This document shows, in pieces, positions 25,727-39,894 of a DNA stretch of 64,000 nt; the first letter of the stretch is position 1, and each line of letters begins with the position of its first letter. The DNA is taken from contig NZ_JPNB01000001.1 of the NCBI RefSeq assembly GCF_000732725.1, positions 992,001 through 1,056,000 on the forward strand, written 5' to 3'. The position numbers and the translations under genes are program-made. The notes beneath the pieces were generated by a model, which had not been told where the DNA came from, did no database searches, and saw only the letters and a list, made by a program, of their open reading frames with translations. This DNA comes from Kineothrix alysoides (GTDB lineage Bacteria; Bacillota; Clostridia; Lachnospirales; Lachnospiraceae).

Positions 25727-28144
25727 ATGGCACAACCGTATAACCACAGAGAGATTGAAGAAAAATGGCGCAAGGAATGGGAAAATAAGCCCGTGAACGT
25801 TAACGATGGAAAAAAGCCTAAATATTACTGCCTGGATATGTTCCCGTATCCGTCTGGAAACGGACTTCACGTAGGGCATTGGAGAGGATATGTGATTTCT
25901 GACGTATGGAGTCGTTATAAGATGTTGAACGGCGGACACTATATCATTCATCCCATGGGTTGGGACGCTTTCGGTCTTCCGGCGGAGAATTATGCGATTA
26001 AGATGGGTGTGCATCCTGCGAAGTCCACAGCACAGAACGTGGCGAATATCAAGAAACAGATCAATCAGATAGCGGCGCTCTATGATTGGGATATGGAGGT
26101 CAATACGACGGATCCTGATTTTTATAAGTGGACGCAATGGATATTTGTGAAGATGTTCAAGGAAGGGCTGGCCTATCAGAAAGAGATGCCGATTAACTGG
26201 TGTCCTTCCTGCAAGACCGGACTCGCTAACGAAGAAGTAGTAAACGGACAGTGTGAGCGCTGTGGTTCGGAAGTGACCAAGAAGAATCTGAATCAGTGGA
26301 TGCTGCGCATTACCAAATATGCGGACCGTCTCCTTGAGGATCTGGATAAACTGGATTGGCCGGAGAAGGTTAAGAAGATGCAGTCCGAATGGATCGGGCG
26401 TTCTTACGGGGCGGAAGTGGATTTCAAGGTAGATGGAAGCGAGGAAGCGATTACCGTCTATACCACAAGGCCGGATACCCTTTACGGGGCGACATTCATG
26501 GTACTGGCACCGGAACACAAGCTGGCAGCAGGTCTGGCAACTCCGGATACGAAGGCGGCTGTGGATAAGTATATTCAGGATGCTGCTAATAAATCCAATG
26601 TGGACAGACTTCAGGACAAAGAAAAGACGGGTGTATTTACGGGCTCCTATGCCGTGAATCCGTTAAACGGCGCCAAGACTCCGATTTGGCTCTCAGATTA
26701 TGTGCTGGCAGACTACGGAACGGGAGCTATCATGTGCGTACCCGCTCACGATGACCGTGATTTTGAATTTGCTACCAAGTTCAATATTCCGATTGTTCAG
26801 GTTATTGCCAAGGACGGAAAAGAAATAGAAAATATGGCCGAGGCGTATACCGAGGCGGTGGGAACGATGATCAATTCCGGCGAATGGAACGGCATGGAGT
26901 CTGCCGTTTTAAAGAAGGAAGCTCCGATTATGATCGAGGAGCTTGGCTTTGGTCATAAGACGACGAATTATAAGCTCCGCGACTGGGTATTCTCACGTCA
27001 GCGTTATTGGGGGGAACCGATTCCGATCGTGCATTGCCCTAAGTGCGGCTGTGTGCCTGTGCCGGAGGAGGAATTGCCGCTGCTTCTGCCGGAGGTGGAG
27101 TCTTACCAGCCGACAGGAACCGGCGAATCACCGCTTGCGGGCATTGATGAATGGGTAAATACCACATGTCCTGCCTGTGGTGCGCCTGCCAAGAGAGAGA
27201 CGAACACCATGCCCCAGTGGGCAGGATCTTCATGGTATTTCCTGCGTTACGTGGACAGCAAGAACGATAATCAGCTGGTGAGCAGAGAAAAGGCTGACAA
27301 ATTCCTTCCGGTAGATATGTATATAGGAGGCGTGGAGCATGCGGTACTTCATTTGCTTTATTCCAGATTTTATACGAAGTTCCTGTGCGATATCGGGGTT
27401 GTCGACTTCGACGAACCCTTTACCAAGCTGTTCAATCAGGGAATGATTACCGGAAAGAACGGTATTAAGATGAGTAAATCCAAAGGAAATGTAGTGTCAC
27501 CCGACAATCTGGTGAATGACTATGGCTGCGATTCCTTAAGATTATATGAGCTTTTCGTAGGGCCGCCGGAATTGGATTCGGAGTGGGACGACAGAGGAAT
27601 CGACGGAGTGTATCGCTTTATTACGCGCTTCTGGAATCTCGTAACGGAAAATAAGGATAAGAATGTGGAAGCGACCAAGGAGATGCTGAAGGTTCGCAAC
27701 AAGATGATTGCCGATATCTCACAGCGCTTGGAGAATTTCAGCTTGAATACGGTAGTATCCGGCTTTATGGAATACAACAACAAGATGATCGATATGGCCA
27801 GAAACGGGGGAATCGACAAGGATACGCTAAAGACAGCCGTTATCCTGCTATCTCCCTTTGCACCTCATATCGGCGAGGAGCTGTGGCGTCAGTTAGGCGA
27901 GGCAGATTCCGTATTCCATGCGGTATGGCCTGTGGCAGATGAAAGCGCGATGGTAGATGATGAAAAGGAAATTGCCGTACAGATGAACGGCAAGACGAAG
28001 ATTGTCATTAAGATGCCCGTGGATATTACGAAGGAAGCGGCGATTGCCGCGGGTAAGGAAGCGCTGGGAACGAAGCTTGCGGGGGAAATCGTAAAAGAAA
28101 TTTATGTTCCCGGGAAAATTGTCAATATCGTAGTAAAGCCATAA
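25727..28144 (+). CDS. leuS: Leucine--tRNA ligase
   Basis: LeuS charges tRNA-Leu in the cytosol and edits mischarged products. The class I signature HIGH appears as HVGH in PYPSGNGLHVGHWRGY (about residues 42-57). The CP1 editing domain spans about 220-415 (TTRPDTLYGATFMVLAPEH, and CVPAHDDRDFEFA). Zn-ribbon-like Cys pairs are CPSCKTG...CERCG. The second signature is KMSKS in GIKMSKSKGNVVSPD. 805 residues is normal for the bacterial form. The start follows GAGGAAGAG; an in-frame ATG at 25676 would add residues from within the leader and is less likely. Confidence 0.98.
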   Translation: MAQPYNHREIEEKWRKEWENKPVNVNDGKKPKYYCLDMFPYPSGNGLHVGHWRGYVISDVWSRYKMLNGGHYIIHPMGWDAFGLPAENYAIKMGVHPAKSTAQNVANIKKQINQIAALYDWDMEVNTTDPDFYKWTQWIFVKMFKEGLAYQKEMPINWCPSCKTGLANEEVVNGQCERCGSEVTKKNLNQWMLRITKYADRLLEDLDKLDWPEKVKKMQSEWIGRSYGAEVDFKVDGSEEAITVYTTRPDTLYGATFMVLAPEHKLAAGLATPDTKAAVDKYIQDAANKSNVDRLQDKEKTGVFTGSYAVNPLNGAKTPIWLSDYVLADYGTGAIMCVPAHDDRDFEFATKFNIPIVQVIAKDGKEIENMAEAYTEAVGTMINSGEWNGMESAVLKKEAPIMIEELGFGHKTTNYKLRDWVFSRQRYWGEPIPIVHCPKCGCVPVPEEELPLLLPEVESYQPTGTGESPLAGIDEWVNTTCPACGAPAKRETNTMPQWAGSSWYFLRYVDSKNDNQLVSREKADKFLPVDMYIGGVEHAVLHLLYSRFYTKFLCDIGVVDFDEPFTKLFNQGMITGKNGIKMSKSKGNVVSPDNLVNDYGCDSLRLYELFVGPPELDSEWDDRGIDGVYRFITRFWNLVTENKDKNVEATKEMLKVRNKMIADISQRLENFSLNTVVSGFMEYNNKMIDMARNGGIDKDTLKTAVILLSPFAPHIGEELWRQLGEADSVFHAVWPVADESAMVDDEKEIAVQMNGKTKIVIKMPVDITKEAAIAAGKEALGTKLAGEIVKEIYVPGKIVNIVVKP

Positions 28145-28263
28145 AGCAATAAATCAGGAAAAGTACGCGCAGTTGCGTATCGTTTGCCCGGAGGGATTTT
28201 TAGATTATTGGAAGGAAAAACATTCACATGTTAAGTCAGCAAAGTTTTTCCTATGATATAAGA

Positions 28264-28303
28264 AAACAGCGTATGCAGGGAATAAAGCCTGCATACGCTG
28301 TTT
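28264..28303. terminator. Perfect 16-bp-stem terminator between leuS and the convergent minus-strand genes
   Basis: AAACAGCGTATGCAGG (28264-28279) and CCTGCATACGCTGTTT (28288-28303) are exact complements across an 8-base loop. The stem abuts the stop of the minus-strand gene and can serve both directions. Confidence 0.85.
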
Positions 28304-28576
28304 CTAATGTTTTCTCTTTAAAGCCATGAGTTTACTTATCTTCTCAGCTTCCTCAGGGGAGGAGTATTTGCGAAGAGTGGCGGCAATTACGGCGATTTCT
28401 TCATCGTCGAATAAAATATTATTCATCCTTCCCTTTTGCGATACAGACATAAGAAATGGGATTAACTGTTCGCGGGACAGGTTCCGGCTCTCGAAGACGA
28501 GGGTTTGTAAAAATTGCAGTTTATCCCTGTCGATGCCGGCAACGAGGGGATCATCCATCCATTCGTTCTGATTCAT
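28304..28576 (-). CDS. Small acidic protein of unknown function
   Basis: I do not recognise this 90-residue protein. It is charged and helical-looking with no signal peptide, membrane segment or Cys. An EEIAVIAATLRKYSSPEEAE-like C-terminal half suggests helix-turn-helix packing but no known motif. The start at 28576 was chosen because GGAGGTAAC lies just upstream; the longer frame to 28600 would start inside the previous gene without a site. It overlaps the end of the upstream gene by 26 bp, so the two are translated from one mRNA. Confidence 0.7.
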   Translation of the reverse strand: MNQNEWMDDPLVAGIDRDKLQFLQTLVFESRNLSREQLIPFLMSVSQKGRMNNILFDDEEIAVIAATLRKYSSPEEAEKISKLMALKRKH

Positions 28577-29105
28577 AGTTGTTACCTCCAAACATTTCAA
28601 ACATCGCCTTCTGCTCGGGAGAAAGCATGTTCATGAGCATGTCGGCCATATTCATAGTCGAGTGATTATTCGCGGAATAACCGTCGGGATCCGGGGTGGG
28701 CTGCGGGGGCGCTCCAAAAGGGAAACCGCCCTCGAAGCTTTCCGGAAACAGTTCTTTCATCGCTTCGAAGGTGCTGAACATTTCCTTATACATATCCATC
28801 GAACGGAAAAGACCTGCGATTTGTTCTACCTTTTGTTTTTCTTCCTGTGTACAATAGGGAAGAATCTCGGAGCATATTTTACTGATATTGAATTCTTCTT
28901 TCTTAATCGCGCAGCTGCGCAGTTCATAAGAATGTGACTGATAATAAGAAAGGGTATGCTGCAGCTCAAGAAACTTTATATAAATTGCTAATTGTTTCTG
29001 TAGCGGGCTGTCGAAATAAGGGATAATAATTTTTAACATCTGAATATGATTGCTTGTAGATAGGACATCGAAAGATGTTATTTTGTCTTGCTTTTTTTCT
29101 TCCAT
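28551..29105 (-). CDS. Conserved-looking cytosolic protein of unknown function
   Basis: 184 residues starting MEEKKQDKITSFDVLSTSN. The first ~125 residues are predicted helical (KIIIPYFDSPLQKQLAIYIK). The tail is Pro/Gly/Asn-rich and ends in a Met-rich segment (MNMADMLMNMLSPEQKAMFE). The overall plan, a helical body plus a C-terminal short amphipathic Met-rich peptide, is shared with other unannotated Lachnospiraceae proteins as far as I recall, with no assigned function. The start at 29105 was preferred over 29240 because the longer N-terminus runs through non-coding-looking sequence. It is first of a two-gene unit with the 90-residue protein. Confidence 0.7.
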   Translation of the reverse strand: MEEKKQDKITSFDVLSTSNHIQMLKIIIPYFDSPLQKQLAIYIKFLELQHTLSYYQSHSYELRSCAIKKEEFNISKICSEILPYCTQEEKQKVEQIAGLFRSMDMYKEMFSTFEAMKELFPESFEGGFPFGAPPQPTPDPDGYSANNHSTMNMADMLMNMLSPEQKAMFEMFGGNNYESERMDG

Positions 29106-29273
29106 AAAATCCCTTACCCCTTTGTTATCATAAAATCTTATGTACATAAAAGTGAAAATATACGTATTTCCATGCGTATAATAGCATTGCTGCATGGTAG
29201 GACTGATAGATAGCAGTATTGCTATAACAATATTGTACACATCGGTACCGCAGAGGGTAAGTCCTCATCGGAC

Positions 29274-29302
29274 AAGAGAAAATAGGCTCAGGAGAGCCTA
29301 TC
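29274..29302 (-). terminator. Terminator of the Cys/Gly-rich gene
   Basis: On the minus strand GATAGGCTC, TCCT, GAGCCTAT then TTTTCTCTT form a short stem with a 4-base loop and T run. The remaining sequence between this point and 29105 holds no gene that I can see; it should contain the promoter for the two unknown genes. Confidence 0.7.
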
Positions 29303-29369
29303 TTCAAGATGTGTAGTTGAAATCAGAAAAGCTCTAACTTTGCATTTTTCATCTGATTCCGTAGGGGCT

Positions 29370-29606
29370 TTAGCAGAAGGAATTCCCTCCGCAGCAGCTA
29401 AGGATAAGCAGGATAAATATGATGCTGTCGCAGCCACCGTTAGAATTTCCGCCTAAGATGCCGCCGCCACAGCCGCCGCCGCAGCCACTATTGTTGTTTC
29501 CGCCGCATACGCAGAGCAAAAGAATTATCCAAAGTATAGAATTACATCCGGAGTTGCTATCGCTTACTCCGCCACAGCCACATCCTGTTGCTGTTAAATC
29601 ACTCAT
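29370..29606 (-). CDS. Cys/Gly-rich small hydrophobic protein (chorion-class high-cysteine HCB-like)
   Basis: 78 residues built as two similar halves: a CGCGG or CGGGCGGG cluster and a hydrophobic stretch ending in cysteines (SILWIILLLCVCGG, SIIFILLILSCCGG). About a dozen residues are Cys. Proteins of this design are widespread in Clostridia and often carry the odd automatic name chorion class high-cysteine HCB protein 13. Their function is not established; a spore-coat or membrane-associated role is only a guess. GGAGGC precedes the start at 29606; an in-frame ATG at 29621 is less likely. Confidence 0.78.
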   Translation of the reverse strand: MSDLTATGCGCGGVSDSNSGCNSILWIILLLCVCGGNNNSGCGGGCGGGILGGNSNGGCDSIIFILLILSCCGGNSFC

Positions 29607-29837
29607 AAATTTTGCCTCCAAAAAAATTTTATTTATGGTTTATACTATGATGGATAGCATGTTTTTGTTTCCTGAATTATTAAAAAGAAATATAGAAATT
29701 TTTTTAAAAAAATAGTACTATAAATCGACAAAATACTTGAATTAATTGCGTGGTATTAGTAATATGTTAGTATATGTTATTTTATAATTCGGGGAATATA
29801 TAGCATAACAGATAATTGATACAAAGGAGACAGGCAA

Positions 29838-30995
29838 ATGGCAGCGGAAAGGCAGACAGTTTCGGGCAGGCAATTCCGTACGAAAGCAGATTATGAAGCC
29901 GCACTCAGGGATAAGAAGAAAATAGACATCATTAGATCTAAGACAGATTTGAAAAATCCAAAGGAAGTATTCGCCTTATATGAACAGATGCGGGGCGGAA
30001 TCTACCGGTTCGAGACGACAGTAGGCAACGACTTCGATGATGAAATATATGAACTGGTAGAGCATTACAAAAAGCAGGTAAACAATGGAAAGGGGAAAAA
30101 TAAAAAGAAAAGAAATAAAAGCCATAAAGCGATTAAAGGTGGTAAGAAGATTTCTCTGGAAGACTTCGATGAGGATATGCGCCGGGAAATAGAAGCCCAG
30201 CTGAAGGTGGCAGAGAAGCGCAGGAAGTTAACAGTGATGTTATGTTCTCTGTGTGCTTTAGCCTGTTTTGGATATTTCTTCGTATATTATTTCTTTGCGG
30301 AGAGGACCAGCGCGGATTATGAGCAGTTAGCAGCGCTTAAGGACAGTCAGGTACTTGCCGATTTAGGAGAAAGGGTAATTGTAGTCCGGGGGGAACAGGA
30401 GGAAATAGAACTTCCGGATGTGCTCGATAAATATAAAACTTTACATAATAAGAATAAAAAGCTAATCGGATGGCTAAAAATTGACGATACAATAATAGAT
30501 TATCCTGTAATGCAGACATCCAATAACGAATATTATCTTACGTATAATTTTAATCAGGAATACGATAAGAATGGCAGCATTTTCATGGATTATCAGTGCA
30601 AGGCGTTTCCGCGCTCCCAGAATCTGATATTGTATGGGCATCACATGAAGTCCGGCAAGATGTTCGGTGACTTGGAAAAATATGTGAAAGAGTCTTACTA
30701 TAAAGAGCATAGTGTGATACAATTTGATACGATATATGAAAAAGGCACCTATCAGGTTATGTATGTGTTCAGGGCAAAGGTCTTAAAGGAGAACGATGTT
30801 TCTTTTAAATATTATCAGTTCATAAATGCGAATTCAGCGGAAGAATTCAATTCTTATATGAAAGAGATGGCACAGATGTCTCTGTACGATACCGGGGTAA
30901 CAGCCGAGTACGGTGACGATTTACTGACGCTGTCAACCTGTGACAACTCACAGACGGACGGTAGGTTCGCGGTGGTTGCCAAGAGGATTCAATAA
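29838..30995 (+). CDS. Class B sortase with long cytoplasmic N-terminal extension
   Basis: Sortases cut a C-terminal sorting motif and join the protein to the cell wall. The catalytic domain is at the C-terminus. The His is in YGHHMKSGKMFG (His268), the Cys in LSTCDNSQTDGR (Cys368) and the Arg is Arg376. YPVMQTSNNEYYL is typical of class B. One membrane segment is at about 131-153. Before it lies an unusual 130-residue cytoplasmic region with a KKKRNKSHK basic patch; usual sortases have only a short tail here. AAAGGAGAC is the ribosome site. The stop is 29 bp before the LRR gene, which ends in a sorting signal, so the two form an operon and probably an enzyme-substrate pair. Confidence 0.93.
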   Translation: MAAERQTVSGRQFRTKADYEAALRDKKKIDIIRSKTDLKNPKEVFALYEQMRGGIYRFETTVGNDFDDEIYELVEHYKKQVNNGKGKNKKKRNKSHKAIKGGKKISLEDFDEDMRREIEAQLKVAEKRRKLTVMLCSLCALACFGYFFVYYFFAERTSADYEQLAALKDSQVLADLGERVIVVRGEQEEIELPDVLDKYKTLHNKNKKLIGWLKIDDTIIDYPVMQTSNNEYYLTYNFNQEYDKNGSIFMDYQCKAFPRSQNLILYGHHMKSGKMFGDLEKYVKESYYKEHSVIQFDTIYEKGTYQVMYVFRAKVLKENDVSFKYYQFINANSAEEFNSYMKEMAQMSLYDTGVTAEYGDDLLTLSTCDNSQTDGRFAVVAKRIQ

Positions 30996-31023
30996 AATCG
31001 TTTTACGGCGGAGGAGAGTAGCG

Positions 31024-34000
31024 ATGGCTAAGGGTAAAGATACAAAGAAGAAGAACTTAAAATTACGGAGGCAGCTTAGGAAGACGCTGGGATGTCTGTT
31101 TATGGTTTCGGCGATTATTGTGACGACGATTCCGGTCCAGCCGGTGGAGGCTGAGAGTATACTGGCTTTAGGGAAGTGGATTGTAACGACTGATGCAAAT
31201 ACCAATATTCCTAAAGTTCTTCCCGGTGAAAAGATATATCAGACGGGGGATAGCAATTTCCGGTTTGCCTATGTTGGTTCGACCAATGATAAATATGCGG
31301 TTATAGTTGGGTATAATAAAGAACAAACTTTAAATGGCGGTAATCTTACGATTCCCAATGAAGTGGATGCATATGTAAAATATTCTGATACCGAAGGAAC
31401 GTCAAGGGGATATGCGGCGGCAGCGAAGGACGGAACACCTCTATTTTATGCCAGTGCCACACATAAAGAAACAATTTATATAGATGAGGAGCAATCGGAT
31501 GGGCATGGTGGAACTGTAATCGTAAAGGTAGAAGCCGGCTCAAAGACGGTAATCGATGCATGGAGTCCTTGTTACTATGAGACCTATTCCGTTTGGCATA
31601 ACGCAGTAGATAACACGGATGTACAGCTATATTACCAGGTTATCGAAGATGGTAAAGAGAAGTATGTAGAAATAGACCCCACACGTGACCGTATCCGCTC
31701 TGCTAAGGTAAAGTATATAGGAAGCCAGACTGCGGTGTATGACACTACCGATGGCTATAAGATAGCAGCTGATGGCAGCGCAAGTACTGAGACAGATAGT
31801 GTTTTCGGCGGTAAGAAATTAACGGCATCGAACATTATTAATCTTACAATTGGACCGGATTTGCTGGGTATAGGAAGATATGCATTCTACAATTGTAATA
31901 ATATCAAAAGTATTACCTTTGGAAATGGTTTAAATACGATAGAGCAATATGCGTTTGCTGATTGCGGCAGTTTGAATTTTGTTACTATGCCGATAGAAGC
32001 CAATATTACAATGCTTGGTGATCATGCATTTTACAATTGCGGCAGGCTTCAAAGCTTTGATGTGCCGAGTACCACACAGGCGATTGGAGATTCTTGCTTT
32101 GAAAATTGTAACAGTATGACTAAGATTAATTTAGTTCCTTCGGATAAGATGATCGCATCGAATTTAAGAGCAATAGGATATGATGCGTTTAAAAATTGCA
32201 CCTCTTTGACTGAATTGGTATTGCCGGAAAAATTTTCAGGAGAATGGGAAGGTGCGAGCAACAAAAATAAGTTTCACTTGTCGACAGTAAAGGGATGTAC
32301 AAGTCTCACAAGAATTATGACATATAGTGAAGAATTAGAATTTGTGTCAGATACCGATATTTATACCTTTGCTGATTTTAAAAATGAAGTAGGCAAGAAG
32401 TTTTATCTTGAGGCTCCAGGCTATAAAAGCGGAACCAATAATCAGACAAAAACTCCTACGCATATAATCGCCAATACAGAGCACATAGCATTTAAATACC
32501 TCGGCGTAGACAAATATGAAATTGTTGAGGTGGAGAAGGATGTTAGCAATGTTTATACGGATATTATTTATGCGATTAACCAATACGGAGAGCTGATAAC
32601 CTTTGAAGTCAAAGACAAAAAAAAGGTGCCGAGCATTACGATGCCGGAACAAATCGGTCCATATGGTATTACGGCGATACAAGACGGAAGCTTCAGCGAT
32701 AATTGCTGGATTCAGAAAGTTACAATTCCTGCATCTGTGCTTGATATTCGTAAAGGAGCATTCAGAGGGTGTCATAATTTAAGAGATGTAATTTTTACAA
32801 ATGCTAAAAATGTACAGATGATTGAAGACGGAGCGTTTGCGACACAAACAATTAGGACAACTGCACCTGCACATCTCGCGGGCGACGAGGGAATAAATAA
32901 TGGTTTCTGTGGCGATAATACCTTCTTAAATACCAGCAAGACGATTCCGGCGCCGTATTTGAGTTTCTCAGGTGATATTGTAAATGATTCCGGAGTGAAT
33001 ACCCAGCCATTTAAATATGCTATGAAGGCATCGAATTTTATTAATGTTACGACACAGCCTGATACATATATTACTTATTTCAGCGGCTGGCCTACAAACT
33101 TAACGGTGCAATATAACTTTGTATCAGGGCAGGCGGAATTGATTGGCTATCCGACGAAAGCTGACTTGGTTGCATCTTATGAAAAGGGCGAGGTAGGGGC
33201 GAAAGAAGACATGTTTCCGTACTTGACCGCTGATAGAAAGGCCGCAGCGAGCGGTGCCTTGGCTGCATATAATGGTTGGGATAAGGTGGCAGGTTCGTCC
33301 ACCCAGCCGACAAGCGAACAGCTTGCAATTGTTAATGCAGTTTATAACATGATTATTCCCAGTGGTGTGACTGCTATTAAGACAGGGCTCTTTTCCGGAA
33401 GAGACGCTAATAACAACGTGTTAAGTGAGTATACGTATAAGGATGCCTCTGATAATATAATTATAATAAAGAATGACGAGGTAAAATCCATTACTCTGAT
33501 GAGTATCGATAAGGTAGAGTCGTATGCGTTCTCTAATTTGACCAGTTTGGAAACTTTTAACATGAACGGCGGAACTGCTATCGGCAGTTATGCATTTGAT
33601 AATTGTGACAAGTTAACTTCGGTATCTATAGGACCGAGCGTGATGACTATGGGAATCAGGCCCTTTAAGTCTTGTGCCTTATTGAAGAATGTGTCGATAC
33701 CAAGCAGCGATTATTTGTCCAGCAATAATGCAATTATTTATGGAAAGACAAATGGGGTTAATACAAAGATAATCGAATGCCTGGAGACGAGAGGTGATAA
33801 GAGCGGAAGCACCACGATTGGGCCGGATGAGCTTTCTGGAATTACAAGTATTGAAAAAGAAGCGTTTATGAACTGTGATGGTATTGGTGCGGTAGATTTA
33901 TCCAAATCTACGGTAAAAACTATTCCGGAAAGGTGCTTTGCTGATTATGAATCGGATCCGGATAATCCGACTCAGGGAACCAGGGATAATCGATTAGGAA

Positions 34001-35889
34001 GCGTTATTCTTCCGGCAGGAGCTACGAATATATCCGCGGGAGCATTCTGGAACAGCAATGTATATAGCGTCAGGATTCCGTCAACCGTTAGCTATATAGA
34101 ACCTAACGCATTCTCTTATACGAAAGGTACGGTGGGTGAGTCTGCTCAGCCATGGAATGACAGTACGAAACAGCCTCTTTTTGATGATTCAGAACATAGC
34201 CAGATTACATTTATCTGTTTGAATGAGTCTCCCGCTGCTATTTATGCGGAAAAATATACTTATATCAATACGGAAGAATCCAGCGATTTAAAGGCTAGAT
34301 ATACTGTTTATTTCTTTGATGCGGTAGATCCTCTTAATCCTAAGCCTATTGAAGAACAGTTAGTAATTTCCGGAGATGATGCGACACTGCCTACTCCTCC
34401 GACGCATACCGGATATACGTTTTCACAATGGTATCCGTCAGATGCATATAAGGCTGTTTCGAGAGATATAGAAATCAGCGCTTTGTATACGAAATCGGAT
34501 GCGACGACCTATACCGTAAGATTCTTCAATTATAACAAAGAATTGATGAACGATTATACACAGCAGGTAGTGGAAGGCAAGGATGCGGTGCCGCCTGCCG
34601 CAGACAAGATGGTGGTAGAAGGAAAGGTATTTACCGGTTGGGACAGATCCTATTCCAATATTACATCAGCAGTGGATATTTATGCTACTTACGTAGATAA
34701 AATAGCGGGAACCTATACGGTAACGTTCTGGGCAGATATGGAAATGACAACCATGGTAGGTAAGCCTCAGCAGGTGGCATCCGGAGATAGTGCGATAGAA
34801 CCGGCACATCCCACTAAGACGGGATATACCTTCAGCGGATGGTATCCGGCAACGGCATGGCAGAAAGTGACGAAGGATCTGGATGTTGTTGCGATGTTTA
34901 CGTCCGGCAGCGGTACTGATGATAATGGCAATAATAATGGTAATAATGGTAATAACAATAACGGCAATAATAGTGGAGGCAATAACAGCGGAGGCAATAA
35001 CAGCGGAGGAAGTAGTAGCAACAATTCCGTTTCCGGTAACAGTACGAAATATACAGTTACGGTTAGCGGAGGAAGCGGAAGTGGCGACTATACGCCGGGT
35101 ACCATTGTTAATATCAACGCATATGCGACTGCGGACGGTCAGGTGTTCGATAAGTGGACGAGCTCTTCGGCAGGAGTAGGATTTGTAAATGCGAGTGCGA
35201 TATCCACATCATTTACTATGCCGGCAAACAATGTGGCAATTACAGCGAACCAAAAAGCAGGAAAAGCTTCCTCTTCTTCTGTATCGGGCAATGCAAGAAA
35301 CACGCTTCGCAATTCGACGACAGGTGTCGATGTGACAAAGAGCGGTATCTCTAATACGGATTTGGTGTCGGCAAATGTGAACGGCTCTTCAGACAATTAT
35401 GTGATTAGAATAACGGAGGATGCGCAGGCGACAGCGGCTGTTATAGCGGCTTTGGAAGCGAAGTATGGGGATCTCAGCAACATTGCTTACTGGCCGATGG
35501 ACATCAGTTTGTACGATGAGACGGGACAGACTAAGATAACGGATATAAGCGGAGTAACGGTAGATATTACGTTACCGCTGCCGGATGAACTGATTCAGTA
35601 CGCCGGTAACAACAAGGCTGCAAGCGTAGTAAATTCCCAACTGGAAGAGTTGGGAGCGAAGTTCACAACGATTGACGGAGTACCTTGTATTCAGTTTACG
35701 GCAACACATTTCTCGCCGTACACGATTTATGTAGATAAAGCGAACCTTACGGAAGGACTGGTCGATGCGACGCCTAAGACCGGAGATCCGATTCATCCTA
35801 AGTGGTTCCTTGCAATAGGACTTGCATGCGTTTCTGTTATTTTGTTTGCGAAGAAGGATAAAATACAGCCAAAGGTAAAAACGGCTTAA
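31024..35889 (+). CDS. Giant BspA-type LRR surface protein with InlB-like repeats and PKTGD sorting signal
   Basis: A 1621-residue secreted, wall-anchored protein. A long basic n-region and hydrophobic core end at about residue 45 (VQPVEAES), the likely signal-peptidase site. Several blocks of BspA/LRR_5 repeats follow (GRYAFYNCNNIKSITFGNGL, AFADCGSLNFVTMP, AFKNCTSLTELVLP). Near 1080-1290 are three InlB B-repeat-like units (YTFSQWYPSD, YTFSGWYPATAW), then an Asn/Gly/Ser linker of about 45 residues, a beta-rich module and the terminal domain shared with the next gene. The end is TPKTGD, a hydrophobic segment (WFLAIGLACVSVILFA) and a basic tail, a sorting signal for the adjacent sortase. GGAGGAGAG precedes the start at 31024; the in-frame codon at 30940 lies inside the sortase gene. 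Confidence 0.9.
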   Translation: MAKGKDTKKKNLKLRRQLRKTLGCLFMVSAIIVTTIPVQPVEAESILALGKWIVTTDANTNIPKVLPGEKIYQTGDSNFRFAYVGSTNDKYAVIVGYNKEQTLNGGNLTIPNEVDAYVKYSDTEGTSRGYAAAAKDGTPLFYASATHKETIYIDEEQSDGHGGTVIVKVEAGSKTVIDAWSPCYYETYSVWHNAVDNTDVQLYYQVIEDGKEKYVEIDPTRDRIRSAKVKYIGSQTAVYDTTDGYKIAADGSASTETDSVFGGKKLTASNIINLTIGPDLLGIGRYAFYNCNNIKSITFGNGLNTIEQYAFADCGSLNFVTMPIEANITMLGDHAFYNCGRLQSFDVPSTTQAIGDSCFENCNSMTKINLVPSDKMIASNLRAIGYDAFKNCTSLTELVLPEKFSGEWEGASNKNKFHLSTVKGCTSLTRIMTYSEELEFVSDTDIYTFADFKNEVGKKFYLEAPGYKSGTNNQTKTPTHIIANTEHIAFKYLGVDKYEIVEVEKDVSNVYTDIIYAINQYGELITFEVKDKKKVPSITMPEQIGPYGITAIQDGSFSDNCWIQKVTIPASVLDIRKGAFRGCHNLRDVIFTNAKNVQMIEDGAFATQTIRTTAPAHLAGDEGINNGFCGDNTFLNTSKTIPAPYLSFSGDIVNDSGVNTQPFKYAMKASNFINVTTQPDTYITYFSGWPTNLTVQYNFVSGQAELIGYPTKADLVASYEKGEVGAKEDMFPYLTADRKAAASGALAAYNGWDKVAGSSTQPTSEQLAIVNAVYNMIIPSGVTAIKTGLFSGRDANNNVLSEYTYKDASDNIIIIKNDEVKSITLMSIDKVESYAFSNLTSLETFNMNGGTAIGSYAFDNCDKLTSVSIGPSVMTMGIRPFKSCALLKNVSIPSSDYLSSNNAIIYGKTNGVNTKIIECLETRGDKSGSTTIGPDELSGITSIEKEAFMNCDGIGAVDLSKSTVKTIPERCFADYESDPDNPTQGTRDNRLGSVILPAGATNISAGAFWNSNVYSVRIPSTVSYIEPNAFSYTKGTVGESAQPWNDSTKQPLFDDSEHSQITFICLNESPAAIYAEKYTYINTEESSDLKARYTVYFFDAVDPLNPKPIEEQLVISGDDATLPTPPTHTGYTFSQWYPSDAYKAVSRDIEISALYTKSDATTYTVRFFNYNKELMNDYTQQVVEGKDAVPPAADKMVVEGKVFTGWDRSYSNITSAVDIYATYVDKIAGTYTVTFWADMEMTTMVGKPQQVASGDSAIEPAHPTKTGYTFSGWYPATAWQKVTKDLDVVAMFTSGSGTDDNGNNNGNNGNNNNGNNSGGNNSGGNNSGGSSSNNSVSGNSTKYTVTVSGGSGSGDYTPGTIVNINAYATADGQVFDKWTSSSAGVGFVNASAISTSFTMPANNVAITANQKAGKASSSSVSGNARNTLRNSTTGVDVTKSGISNTDLVSANVNGSSDNYVIRITEDAQATAAVIAALEAKYGDLSNIAYWPMDISLYDETGQTKITDISGVTVDITLPLPDELIQYAGNNKAASVVNSQLEELGAKFTTIDGVPCIQFTATHFSPYTIYVDKANLTEGLVDATPKTGDPIHPKWFLAIGLACVSVILFAKKDKIQPKVKTA

Positions 35890-35903
35890 TCGCAGGGGGG
35901 CCT

Positions 35904-38483
35904 ATGAATAAAAAAAGTAAGATTCTTTTAGGAGTGTTGCTCTTTGTTGCAATAGCAGCACTCCGGCTTCCAATGTCTCAGGTGGAAGCGGAATCATCAT
36001 CTGCTTCTGATTTCCAGATGAAGGGCGATACACTGGTAAAGTATACGGGTACGGCCAGCGCGGCGTCCATTCCGGTATCAGTGAAGCACATTGGAAAAGA
36101 GGCTTTTTCAGGACATGCAGAGCTCAAGAAGGTCGAAATTCCGGGATATGTGGAAAGCATTGATTATAATGCGTTCAGCGGATGCAGTTCGCTAGAAAAT
36201 GTTGTTATACCCGATACGGTTACGGCAATCGGTAACGGGGCATTCAGTGGATGCAGCAGCCTGAAAATAGTAACAATAGGAAAGAAATTGGATACCCTCG
36301 GCAATGGAGTATTTGCGGATTGTGCGGCTCTTAGTGAGATTAAGCTGAGTAAGAATAATACGGATTTTGTTTATGATTCCGGTGTGATTTACAGTAAAGA
36401 TAAGACGATCGTGTACGCCATGATTCCGGGATATGCTCAGGGAGCATATAAGATGCCTTCCACGGTGAAGGAAATTAAGAGTAATGCCTTTTGGGGATGT
36501 ATGAACCTCGAAAAAGTAGAAATAGGAAGCAATGTTAAGAAGATACCGGATTATGCCTTTGCAAATTGTCAGAAGCTGGGAAAGGTTCTGTTTCCGTATT
36601 CTGTGACTACGATAGGCATTGGGGCTTTTTCAGATTGCATTAACTTGGGAAGCATCGAAATACCGCTATCTGTTTCTTCGATACATGAGACGGCCTTCGA
36701 AGGTTGTCCGAAGCTTGTCATTATTGCGCCGGAGGGTTCTTATGCGGCGGAATATGAATCGAAGCGTGATAAATCCCAAGTGGCTCAAAGCGAATATCAG
36801 GAGGTGACAAAGGCCTCAGGAGAGAGCGGGAGTGAAGGCGGGCAGGGCGGAACGGATAATGCGGATGCGGATACCGGGACTACACTGGGACAAAGCAGGA
36901 TTGTGGGTGGTAACGCAGTAGTGTTCATAGACAACAGTCGTTCCAAGGTGTTGTCCGGGAATGTGCAGACGGAAGATAAACAGGGCAGTACTGCATCCTC
37001 GGAGGTAATGGGAGGCGGGCAGACTGCAGGGGCCTATTCTAAGTATACGATTGTAAACGACAAGAAAATTGCAGCTCAGGCATATTATGGAAATACGGCA
37101 TTGACCGAATATGAGATACCCGAGACGGTAGAGGAAATAGGAGATTTCGCTTTTGCAAGAACGGGACTCACCATTGTTACGATACCGGACGGTGTGATAA
37201 CCATCGGATACGGAGCATTTTACCATGCGGATGACCTGGCTTCGGTATCCATTCCGGATACGGTAACGACGATAGAGCCTTCCGCCTTCGATAAGACAAA
37301 GTGGATGGAGAATTGTCTGGTCAACAGAAGAAATCCATTTACAGTAGTAGGAGACGGCATTTTAATCGCTTATGGAGGTGTCGGTGATAAAGTGGAGGTG
37401 CCGGAGGGCGTAAAGCAGATAGGAGCGGAAGTATTTAAAGGACATACCGAGATAACTGTGGTTACCCTGCCCAGTACCTGTACTGTTGTGGGAGAGGACG
37501 CTTTTGCCGGATGCAATAAGCTGACCAGCATATCCGGCGGTGATAACTTAAAGGAAATAAAGGATAGGGCATTTTCAGGATGTCCGATCAGTACCATAAA
37601 GATTCCTTCTTCTGTGGAGAAAATAGGTTTAAAGGCTTATGACATAACTGGCACGACAAAAGAGGGCGGAAGCAAAGTTGCTGTTTTCCTGGGCAAGAGT
37701 ATACCAGGTGTATCTTATGAGAAGACGGCTACCAGATTGATAAACGAAGAGGACAGAGGTTCTGTGCTGAAGGGGGTAAACGTTGCGATTGTAAACGACA
37801 GCGTAACACCTGAGAACGTGAGGGGCACCGCTTTGGATTATGATACAGGCGGATTCAGGGGACTCGTCTGCAGTGTGGAACAGGCAGCGGAAGACGGCAA
37901 GCAAGGACGGTTAAGGCTTAAATTTATCGTGATGCGCGAAGAGGATGTAAACGATAATACGATTCCCAGTCAGGTAACGGTATATGGTAAGAGCTATAAG
38001 ATATCCAACCCGAGAGAAGTCGTAGAGTACGTCTCCGGCAGCAAAGCGGAGGTTTTGGGACAAGGAATGGTATCGGTAGAGGTAGATAGTGCCACCTTAT
38101 CCGGAACATTGGCTGCAACAGCGCAGTTGTCGGGAATCAATGAAAATTACGTTTTAAAAATCAGTGATAATGCCGGCGCAGGAAGCACCATAAGCGCGGC
38201 ATATAAAAAAGCGGTGCCGGGCGGCAAAATCGTGAGCCTGCAAGTCTATGATTTCACCTTGTACGATGCAAAGACGATGATTCCCATCAGTAAGGCGGGA
38301 AAACAGCAAATGACGGTGACCATACCCAAGCCCATGGGAGTGGCGCAGGATGCTCTTCAGATTGCATGTCTGGATGAGGATGGACAGTTAGAAAAGATAG
38401 ACTTCCATTTGGTAACGGTAGACGGGGTGTCCTGCATACAGTTTAACGTGCAGAGATTTACTACATACGCATTTTTTAATTAA
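35904..38483 (+). CDS. Second BspA-type LRR secreted protein, no wall anchor
   Basis: 859 residues with a signal peptide (ILLGVLLFVAIAALRLPM, cut near VEAES). Two runs of BspA-type LRRs are present, at about 50-290 (AFSGCSSLENVVIPDTVTAI, VFADCAALSEIKLS) and about 390-600 (AFAGCNKLTSISGG), joined by a Gly/Ser/Asp-rich linker. The last ~110 residues are homologous to the end of the neighbouring giant protein: YVLKISDNAG against YVIRITEDAQ, and VTVDGVSCIQFNVQRFTTY against TTIDGVPCIQFTATHFSPY. The PKTGD sorting tail is missing, so it is probably released or held by another contact. It starts 14 bp after the upstream stop, with AGGGGGG upstream. Confidence 0.9.
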   Translation: MNKKSKILLGVLLFVAIAALRLPMSQVEAESSSASDFQMKGDTLVKYTGTASAASIPVSVKHIGKEAFSGHAELKKVEIPGYVESIDYNAFSGCSSLENVVIPDTVTAIGNGAFSGCSSLKIVTIGKKLDTLGNGVFADCAALSEIKLSKNNTDFVYDSGVIYSKDKTIVYAMIPGYAQGAYKMPSTVKEIKSNAFWGCMNLEKVEIGSNVKKIPDYAFANCQKLGKVLFPYSVTTIGIGAFSDCINLGSIEIPLSVSSIHETAFEGCPKLVIIAPEGSYAAEYESKRDKSQVAQSEYQEVTKASGESGSEGGQGGTDNADADTGTTLGQSRIVGGNAVVFIDNSRSKVLSGNVQTEDKQGSTASSEVMGGGQTAGAYSKYTIVNDKKIAAQAYYGNTALTEYEIPETVEEIGDFAFARTGLTIVTIPDGVITIGYGAFYHADDLASVSIPDTVTTIEPSAFDKTKWMENCLVNRRNPFTVVGDGILIAYGGVGDKVEVPEGVKQIGAEVFKGHTEITVVTLPSTCTVVGEDAFAGCNKLTSISGGDNLKEIKDRAFSGCPISTIKIPSSVEKIGLKAYDITGTTKEGGSKVAVFLGKSIPGVSYEKTATRLINEEDRGSVLKGVNVAIVNDSVTPENVRGTALDYDTGGFRGLVCSVEQAAEDGKQGRLRLKFIVMREEDVNDNTIPSQVTVYGKSYKISNPREVVEYVSGSKAEVLGQGMVSVEVDSATLSGTLAATAQLSGINENYVLKISDNAGAGSTISAAYKKAVPGGKIVSLQVYDFTLYDAKTMIPISKAGKQQMTVTIPKPMGVAQDALQIACLDEDGQLEKIDFHLVTVDGVSCIQFNVQRFTTYAFFN

Positions 38484-38484
38484 A

Positions 38485-38546
38485 AAAAGTACCAAGACGG
38501 CGGGGCCTGGAAAATCGGTGAGGACTTGCTGCTTGGTACTTTTTTA
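38485..38546 (+). terminator. Terminator of the sortase-LRR operon
   Basis: AAAAGTACCAAG (38485-38496) pairs with CTTGGTACTTTT (38532-38543) over a structured 35-base loop, followed by T residues. Repeat B begins directly at its T-run. Confidence 0.85.
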
Positions 38547-38894
38547 TGTAATAGGAAAGTGTTCCTATTACATAAAAATGGATGCACAGCTACGCGCGCG
38601 GAACAAAAGTTGTGCTGGCGAAGTATTTAATCACGAAAGTATGTGAAGCACACTTTTGTTTATATAATAGGAAAGTGCACCTATTACATAAAAATGGATG
38701 CGCAGCTACGCACGCGGAACAAAAGCTGTGCTGGCGAAGTTATTTAATCACGAAAGTATGTGAAGCACACTTTTGTTTATATAATAGGAAAGTGCACCTA
38801 TTACATAAAAATGGATGCGCAGCTACGCGCGCGGAACAAAAGCTGTGCTGGCAAAGTTATTTAATCACGAAAGTATGTGAAGCACACTTTTGTT
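38546..38894 (+). repeat. Repeat B, three tandem copies (periods 116 and 117 bp)
   Basis: Units begin at 38549, 38665 and 38782 (TAATAGGAAAGTG) and are nearly identical. Each holds three hairpins: TAATAGG/CCTATTA; GCGCAGCT/AGCTGTGC around a GCGCGCGG stretch; and ACGAAAGTATGTG/CACACTTTTGT. An ORF of 112 codons (38582-38920) runs through the array only because 117 is a multiple of 3; it has no ribosome site. The array follows the LRR operon terminator and has the same orientation as the upstream gene. Confidence 0.92.
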
Positions 38895-38923
38895 CCCATC
38901 TGACAAAAAGTAACGAATAACGA

Positions 38924-38955
38924 CTCCCGGCATAAATTAATTAAAAAGCCGGGAG
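38924..38955 (+). promoter_or_regulatory. Hairpin that sequesters the subtilase ribosome binding site
   Basis: CTCCCGGC (38924-38931) and GCCGGGAG (38948-38955) are exact complements across a 16-base A/T loop. The only Shine-Dalgarno candidate for the next gene, GGGAG, is the 3' arm of this stem, 6 bp before ATG. The stem followed by CGTTTT could also act as a terminator. Confidence 0.6.
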
Positions 38956-38961
38956 CGTTTT

Positions 38962-39894
38962 ATGTTTAGAGTCAGACAACAGGTGGGCTGTACGGATGAG
39001 CTCGTAGCATCCTGCAATATTGGAAGAAATGGTGAAGTAGATGATATAAGGGTGGCGGTGCTTGATACCGGAGTAGGCAGCCATCCGGATTTAGACGGCA
39101 GAGTAGAGGCTTTTTATGATTTTCTTCATGGGGGAAGGGCTGCTTATGATGATAGCGGTCACGGGACCCACGTTATCGGTTGTATCGGAGGAAGCGGAAA
39201 AGCTTCCGGAGGAATGTATAAAGGAATTGCCCCTTATTGCCGCCTGATCGTAGGAAAAGTATTAGATGAGAACGGTGATGGCAATATAGATAATATGAGG
39301 AAAGGAATAGAGTGGGTACTGGATAACAGGGAAAGATATAAAATAAGAGTGCTTAACATTTCCATCGGAATAGGGCATATCGATGATAAAAGCAGGATGA
39401 ATGAACTGATCCGCACGGTAGATGCAGCTTGGGACAGCGGAATCGTGGTGGTCTGTGCCGCAGGGAATATGGGACCGGAGCCGATGACGATATCCCCCCT
39501 TGGCGCCAGCAAAAAGGTAATAACGGTGGGATGCCACGAAGGAGGGTTCTTCAGCGGGAAGAGCTCGTTATGCGAGGATTACTCGGGCAGAGGACCGTCA
39601 CCCTATGCGGTAAAAAAACCGGATGTGGTTGCTCCCGGCACGGATATCATCTCCTGCAACGTAGCCTGCCGTTCTACGTTCCGGGGATATAAGAACTCTT
39701 ATACGAAGAAAAGCGGGACCTCCATGGCCACACCTATCGTTTCGGGGGCGGCGGCCTTGCTTTTGCAGAAGTATCCATACCTTACCAACGAGCAGGTAAA
39801 AAGGAAAATTAATTACAGCGCTACCGATCTACATGAACCGTGGACGAAGCAGGGGTGGGGAATGGTAAATATAGGAAGAATGCTCTCACTTTAA
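38962..39894 (+). CDS. Subtilisin-family (S8) serine protease, intracellular type
   Basis: A 310-residue serine protease with an intact catalytic triad: Asp35 in VAVLDTGVGSHPDL, His67 in DDSGHGTHVIG, and Ser254 in KKSGTSMATPIVSGAAAL. The oxyanion Asn region is VVCAAGNMGPEP. There is no signal peptide and only a ~28-residue leader before the catalytic core, so it resembles the intracellular serine proteases, which act in the cytosol. The start ATG follows a GGGAG that sits within a stable hairpin. It stands alone between the repeat B array and the citrate-synthase-like promoter. Confidence 0.93.
   Translation: MFRVRQQVGCTDELVASCNIGRNGEVDDIRVAVLDTGVGSHPDLDGRVEAFYDFLHGGRAAYDDSGHGTHVIGCIGGSGKASGGMYKGIAPYCRLIVGKVLDENGDGNIDNMRKGIEWVLDNRERYKIRVLNISIGIGHIDDKSRMNELIRTVDAAWDSGIVVVCAAGNMGPEPMTISPLGASKKVITVGCHEGGFFSGKSSLCEDYSGRGPSPYAVKKPDVVAPGTDIISCNVACRSTFRGYKNSYTKKSGTSMATPIVSGAAALLLQKYPYLTNEQVKRKINYSATDLHEPWTKQGWGMVNIGRMLSL

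Follow-up and report, generated by a model that had tools for sequence, protein, structure and literature searches.

What might a class B sortase gain from a folded domain placed ahead of its only membrane helix? The question is raised by Kineothrix alysoides (Lachnospiraceae), in which three consecutive plus-strand genes, 28 and 14 bases apart, encode such a sortase and two leucine-rich repeat (LRR) proteins, LRR1 and LRR2 (Table 1). They lie in a stretch of 64,000 nucleotides, here called the window (NCBI RefSeq assembly GCF_000732725.1, contig NZ_JPNB01000001.1, positions 992,001 to 1,056,000 of the forward strand). All 13 other loci of the genus that extend far enough repeat the order sortase–LRR1–LRR2, with an LRR1 carrying TPKTGDPIHPKW, so the cluster is not a chance arrangement. 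On balance, we favor reading it as a conserved Lachnospiraceae wall-anchoring cluster, in which a new cytoplasmic domain would dock a dedicated class B sortase to an intracellular partner. In our judgment, the positioning and regulation of sortases from the cytoplasmic side are poorly understood; this domain of ~80 residues offers a defined handle for asking what steers wall anchoring and may reveal how the process is placed or controlled.

The sortase and its N-terminal domain

An earlier note on this DNA, made from the sequence alone, had described a class B sortase with an N-terminal region before its only helix, and this description stands. The protein scores 160.9 bits against TIGR03064, the curated class B model (cut-off 153.75), and a single helix is predicted at residues 131–149. 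Only two relatives, L086 and L104 (L and G numbers are our labels for loci and genomes), were tested against the same model; both fall just over the cut-off, at 153.9 and 159.6 bits. The PDB sequence matches of the catalytic part are SrtB enzymes, and the presumed catalytic residues H268, C368 and R376 do not vary across 45 aligned sequences. With 54.6 bits against a curated cut-off of 200, the enzyme is not a member of the LPKTxSAVK-specific SrtB family NF040525. One helix is predicted in this sortase and in 56 of 56 domain-bearing sortases. In the window sortase, a Lys/Arg-rich stretch lies directly before it; because this basic linker precedes one helix, the N-terminal domain is probably cytoplasmic, with the N-terminus inside and the catalytic domain outside. 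The Lys-rich patch pointed out in the note is present in this protein but is not a family-wide trait, as the linker of some domain-bearing sortases is short and nearly neutral.

Residues 4–80, hereafter the N-domain, align with the sortases of the genus and with ~200-residue proteins of three other genera. Within the genus, the sortase match included the N-domain in 14 of the 15 other genomes, the exception being G014, a 65% complete assembly. In a family-wide sample of one genome per genus (299 genomes), an N-domain profile found matches in 114, the K. alysoides genome included. Among 44 fetched N-domain loci with long open reading frames (ORFs), 42, from 41 genera, encode sortases as judged by the catalytic motif and BLAST matches to the window’s enzyme; the remaining two are L109 and L125. 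As the domain occurs in many genera, we rejected the notion that the region is an idiosyncrasy of this genome. Wider samples, whose share of family genomes was not established, gave matches in five of 398 genomes across the phylum, all Lachnospiraceae, and in 33 of 246 across the order, 27 of them in the family and six outside (one strong, five weak). The N-domain is, in the samples searched, almost confined to Lachnospiraceae. The sole strong outside match (L220, family f11) is a MatE/MurJ-like transporter to which the N-domain is fused (L220:2430-4547, minus strand), beside a site-specific recombinase-like gene. Four of the five weak ones were fetched (L221–L224; G786 was left out): in L221 and L222 the match lies inside large proteins that may be distant relatives, in L224 it is doubtful and in L223 it did not recur on re-examination. 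L226:3049-3990 and L227:3695-4399 show a further architecture: after an N-domain-like start come a cysteine-rich, zinc-ribbon-like stretch and then a helix.

Comparison of 98 members with Pfam and NCBIfam at E values up to 0.01 yielded families that each matched one member only (best E 0.0022); no consistent match to a known domain of either collection was found. Against PDB sequences, the N-domain profile reached a best E of 0.09. AlphaFold2 predicts a beta hairpin and three helices (predicted local distance difference test (pLDDT) 86, predicted template modeling score (pTM) 0.67), for which fold searches in the PDB returned weak matches (Foldseek best E 1.6; VIA-align Z at most 3.5). Besides the sortases, the domain heads a stand-alone kind of protein, described below. 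F13, F58 and G63 are near-invariant in both kinds, while D25 is invariant in 57 sortase rows and replaced by Glu in 83% of 41 others, and the favored residues of helix 3 differ between the kinds. The domain also sits before one predicted helix in 41 of 41 non-sortase proteins examined.

Fusion and separation of the two kinds look old and rare, as few label changes are needed on either of two trees compared with shuffles. On a quick tree of 66 catalytic domains, presence or absence of the N-domain requires four changes (13.7 in shuffles), and on a tree of 98 N-domains, with few columns and many forks unresolved, the two kinds require three (31.5 in shuffles). One sortase without the domain, that of G019, nests in a group of 27 domain-bearing ones (Shimodaira–Hasegawa-like approximate likelihood ratio test 95; several rows long-branched) and has likely lost it.

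Sorting-signal proteins beside the sortases

The earlier note asked whether the N-terminal region is present in other Lachnospiraceae and always co-occurs with PKTGD substrates; the region is conserved, and two sets of loci support its co-occurrence with PxT[G/A]-tagged neighbors. The first comprised 42 out-of-genus loci, five of which lack an intact downstream gene (L088, L090, L093, L098 and L110). All remaining 37 encode within three genes a protein with PxT[G/A] and a hydrophobic stretch, immediately next to the sortase in 34 (exceptions L095, L106 and L123). By hand count, Lys occupies the third motif position in 23 of the 37, and 25 have TG and 12 TA. The second set consisted of the best 80 of 208 loci found by patterns. 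Because two of these patterns (DKKKIDII and DFDDEIYE) lie inside the N-domain, its presence in 80 of 80 is no fair frequency, and the set served for neighbors only; five loci are shared with the first set (L259–L262, four same-genus loci, and L329, identical to L088). A complete LRR1 is found among the first three ORFs in 62 of the 76 out-of-genus loci and is anchored in all 62, through TPKTGD (59), TPQTGD (2) or TPSTGD (1); these include L299, whose LRR1 is broken into two ORFs and was counted as anchored. Among the other 14, four are cut by a contig or stretch end (L266, L270, L278 and L279), two have nothing downstream (L295 and L329) and eight have other genes next (L286, L291, L300, L316, L318, L319, L332 and L338), although L316 and L319 have a long ORF further down (1,702 and 1,812 residues) that is cut by the stretch end and LRR1-like by sequence.

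The K. alysoides genome has three sortase matches, with the N-domain on the window’s only. The other two (L217 and L218, own contig C2) adjoin a 1,521-residue protein ending in VKTGD and a 1,914-residue protein ending in AKTGD, giving one giant neighbor protein per sortase for all three. PKTGD matches the genome twice; the second match lies opposite an ABC transporter gene and is not a C-terminal signal. The broader pattern PxT[G/A]D has 69 sites, 31 on contig 1 and 38 on contigs 2–3, of which 30 and 20, respectively, were read; the remaining 19 are two with an in-frame stop inside the motif and 17 PxTAD sites outside the reading, so that every PxTGD site was either read or contains such a stop. 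With all PxTGD sites covered in this way, no second PxTGD sorting signal with hydrophobic stretch and basic tail was found besides that of LRR1. A PITGD site (L179) has hydrophobic codons after it; its frame, however, is open for only four codons before the motif, and it was taken as no gene. The eight sites of KTGDxxP include the signals of the other two sortases’ neighbors and no more of that kind. Neither of the two findings that the note had named in advance as speaking against it, a poorly conserved N-terminal region and PKTGD substrates shared among several sortases, was thus seen; the region is conserved, and only one PKTGD sorting signal, that of LRR1, was found in the genome.

LRR1 combines BspA-type LRR_5 repeats with Flg_new and Flg_new_2 (Listeria–Bacteroides) repeats, followed by TPKTGD, a hydrophobic stretch and a KKDK tail. 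LRR2 has LRR_5 repeats and an N-terminal hydrophobic, signal-like helix, and ends without an anchor. LRR_5 scores of 249.8 and 301.9 bits (cut-off 27.7) mark the LRR proteins as BspA-like. Their last ~150–165 residues are homologous (hidden Markov model (HMM) E 8e-74 for LRR1 and 2e-51 for LRR2, both being in the training set; 27% identity between the two; BLAST E ~5e-14 between relatives). The description of a 1,621-residue LRR protein with a sorting signal and basic tail, followed by a third gene sharing its terminal domain without the anchor, was accordingly correct. The shared domain is predicted to be a beta sandwich (pLDDT 84, pTM 0.78) with middling fold matches, namely ZU5 (Foldseek best E 3e-3) and the C-terminal beta sandwich of GH66 dextranase (best Z 6.6, root-mean-square deviation 3.3, 97 aligned). 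Within the K. alysoides genome, LRR1 and LRR2 contain this domain, and the VKTGD protein next to one of the other sortases matches it weakly (E 1.5e-5 in a small set, 5.3e-4 genome-wide).

The conserved gene order and the common C-terminal domain could be taken, as in the note, to indicate a surface assembly of sortase, anchored LRR1 and free LRR2 held together by that domain. We consider this very unlikely. LRR2 lacks a sorting signal in 13 of 13 same-genus loci, but 52 of 53 complete copies outside the genus carry their own [TS]P[DN]TGD signal; judging from these counts, the free LRR2 of the window’s genus is a derived loss of the anchor, and a purpose-built trio of sortase, anchored LRR and free LRR was rejected as ancestral design. 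(The second set’s zero of three anchored LRR2 copies in the genus come from the same loci and are not independent of these 13.) Moreover, many first-set genera have no LRR pair after the sortase but a single shorter substrate. As the C-terminal domain is also weakly present in the neighbor of another sortase, it resembles a general domain ahead of the anchor more than a docking module particular to the LRR pair.

Possible roles of the N-domain

In its stand-alone form, the N-domain heads a single-pass membrane protein of ~190 residues. Of 41 non-sortase loci, 38 have a response regulator gene immediately downstream of it (exceptions L125, L139 and L150), 36 by a distance rule plus L142 and L148, which have longer regulator ORFs; the same rule found a kinase in 29 of the 41. 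Only the pair in L053 was classified; its regulator is PhoB-like, and its kinase scores best against WalK (227 bits; cut-off 725). This arrangement suggests a signaling link, in which the N-domain would be a two-component adaptor, the stand-alone copy would serve the adjacent regulator and kinase, and the sortase would have borrowed the domain so that the pathway senses or controls anchoring. The co-occurrence of the two forms points the same way: by hand count among the matches listed, two or more N-domain genes are present in 39 of the 41 genera whose sortase form is confirmed, and 37 of these 39 have a listed ORF of 179–296 residues; among the other 257 genomes (our own left out), 72 have any match, and some of the 72 may hold a sortase form beyond the matches listed. 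These counts are, however, uncorrected for shared ancestry. Furthermore, the three changes on the N-domain tree indicate that recent exchange between the kinds was rare, and the link is weakened by the sortase keeping its domain where the stand-alone protein is absent. Within the genus, the stand-alone form occurs in 12 of 16 genomes and is missing from G000 (K. alysoides), G009, G007 and G003. The first three retain regulator, kinase and lipoprotein and lack only the stand-alone gene. A kinase match is missing from G003 and also from G011, which has the stand-alone gene; both are fragmented assemblies. We therefore rate the signaling link as improbable.

In K. alysoides, the response regulator, kinase and DUF4352-like lipoprotein genes without the stand-alone gene lie ~125 kb downstream of the window (L357:7299-10482, own contig C1). 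In sister species (L360 and L361), the stand-alone gene is still beside this set, and in one of them (G012; L360:4057-5730, plus strand) a 557-residue ORF, alpha-glucosidase-like by eye, lies between regulator and kinase.

A simpler role would be that of a topogenic or stability segment, a compact N-terminal tail that keeps the N-terminus inside during insertion and has no specific partner. All 56 domain-bearing sortases and all 41 other proteins examined carry the domain ahead of their sole predicted helix, which agrees with such a role, as does the G019 sortase, which does without it. On the other hand, the domain has a specific predicted fold, with F13, F58 and G63 conserved in both kinds and a residue 25 that separates them (Asp in 57 of 57 sortases, mostly Glu in the others), and the two other sortases of the genome lack it. 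This explanation, too, we hold to be unlikely.

The docking reading, which we prefer, combines the following steps. The sortase would be inserted by its one helix with the N-terminus inside and the C-terminus outside, cleave TPKTGD of the giant LRR1 encoded by the next gene and join LRR1 to peptidoglycan, forming a predicted dedicated enzyme–substrate set that displays giant LRR proteins. By analogy with Clostridioides difficile SrtB, the cut would fall between Thr and Gly, the position given by general sortase chemistry. LRR2 was probably also served ancestrally through its [TS]P[DN]TGD signal, since lost in this genus. Most likely, the N-terminal ~80 residues would dock the sortase to a partner inside the cell and so set the place or time of anchoring, and the Lys-rich linker may help to hold the N-domain at the membrane. 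A docking module is what would be expected from a domain that recurs before one helix on 41 of 41 non-sortase proteins and on a MatE/MurJ-like transporter. More tentatively, the N-domain might plug unrelated envelope proteins (the sortase, the two-component accessory protein and others) into one and the same intracellular partner, so that anchoring is placed or controlled from the cytoplasm; we see this as possible but less probable than docking as such. In many genera of this gut-dwelling family, a domain missing from the domain catalogs is joined to a sortase and used again next to a two-component pair.

Several observations weigh against this reading. Fold searches in the PDB and among viral models gave no clear match for the N-domain, hence no function from its fold. 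Adjacency of enzyme and substrate is not special to the window sortase, as the other two sortases of the genome show the same, and six of the 76 second-set loci have no sorting-signal protein in the fetched downstream stretch, which are counter-cases to constant adjacency. The G019 sortase adjoins an LRR protein with TPKTGE although it lacks the N-domain, which makes the domain dispensable for pairing. Finally, the K. alysoides genome retains no other N-domain gene, and any partner in common with the stand-alone form may therefore be missing from it.

Known systems and surroundings of the cluster

Staphylococcus aureus SrtB recognizes an NPQTN motif and acts in haem uptake, with NEAT-domain neighbors. 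The window sortase shares its catalytic domain (1ng5, 1qx6 and 4lfd) but has an N-domain, and its set is unlike NPQTN/haem-uptake systems in motif (TPKTGD) and in neighbors, which are LRR proteins and an S8 protease rather than NEAT proteins. Closer in motif is C. difficile SrtB ((S/P)PXTG), which has PPKTG and SPKTG as substrates (PMC5118464); a sortase B catalytic domain and a PKTG-type motif are common to both, whereas the window enzyme adds an ~80-residue domain and a Lys-rich linker before the helix and has its TPKTGD in the neighboring gene. For Mediterraneibacter gnavus, also of the Lachnospiraceae, eight putative sortases have been described, and most of its SrtB proteins (SrtB1-6) form a clade apart from known SrtB, likewise with candidate targets encoded nearby (PMC13121745); family-specific SrtB–target pairs are therefore already in print. 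The word ‘N-terminal’ occurs 0 times in the main text of that paper. Our literature search, whose reach excluded most subscription papers, found neither the N-domain nor any named folded N-terminal domain on class B sortases. A positively charged domain flanking the helix has been cited as a signature of focal sortase localization (PMC3516528). The window sortase has such a basic stretch on its probable cytoplasmic flank but, in contrast to that signature, a predicted folded domain before it. SecA and septal secretion of sorted proteins are reportedly the subject of published studies. The window LRR proteins share LRR_5 repeats with BspA-like surface proteins such as HupY/LrrG, but score 62.2 and 124.7 bits against a HupY cut-off of 1250.

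Table 1 Features of the sortase–LRR cluster, in window coordinates
Feature	Positions	Strand	Basis
Class B sortase, 385 residues	29838..30995	+	ORF; curated class B model; PDB sequence matches
New N-terminal domain of sortase, residues 4-80, probably cytoplasmic	29847..30077	+	Beta hairpin and three helices (predicted)
Lys/Arg-rich linker of sortase, residues 81-130 (Lys/Arg-rich stretch 77-130)	30078..30227	+	
Single transmembrane helix of sortase, residues 131-149 (predicted)	30228..30284	+	
Sortase B catalytic domain	30420..30992	+	Domain models; PDB sequence matches
LRR1, 1621-residue BspA-type LRR surface protein; signal-like N-terminus, Flg_new repeats, C-terminal sorting signal	31024..35889	+	
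LRR1 C-terminal beta-sandwich domain	35284..35769	+	HMM; predicted structure
LRR1 TPKTGD sorting motif	35770..35787	+	
LRR2, 859-residue secreted LRR protein lacking the anchor seen in other genera	35904..38483	+	
LRR2 C-terminal domain, homologous to that of LRR1	38034..38480	+	HMM

For LRR1, an ATG that has a good ribosome site was taken as the start; the mechanical ORF begins at a GTG at 30940. A scan of 28000-39500 with Rfam gave zero matches at gathering scores, and promoter and terminator scans gave no excess over shuffles. Between LRR2 and the next gene, a 117-bp unit is present in three tandem copies (38543-38894). That gene encodes an S8 serine protease of 310 residues with no evident signal peptide (38962-39894, plus strand); it adjoins the cluster in 12 of 13 genus loci, and a homolog is also beside the cluster in many other genera. 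Upstream of the sortase, a small Cys/Gly-rich protein with two hydrophobic blocks is encoded at 29370-29621 on the minus strand and is kept at this position in three of six genus relatives examined (L036, L038 and L045).

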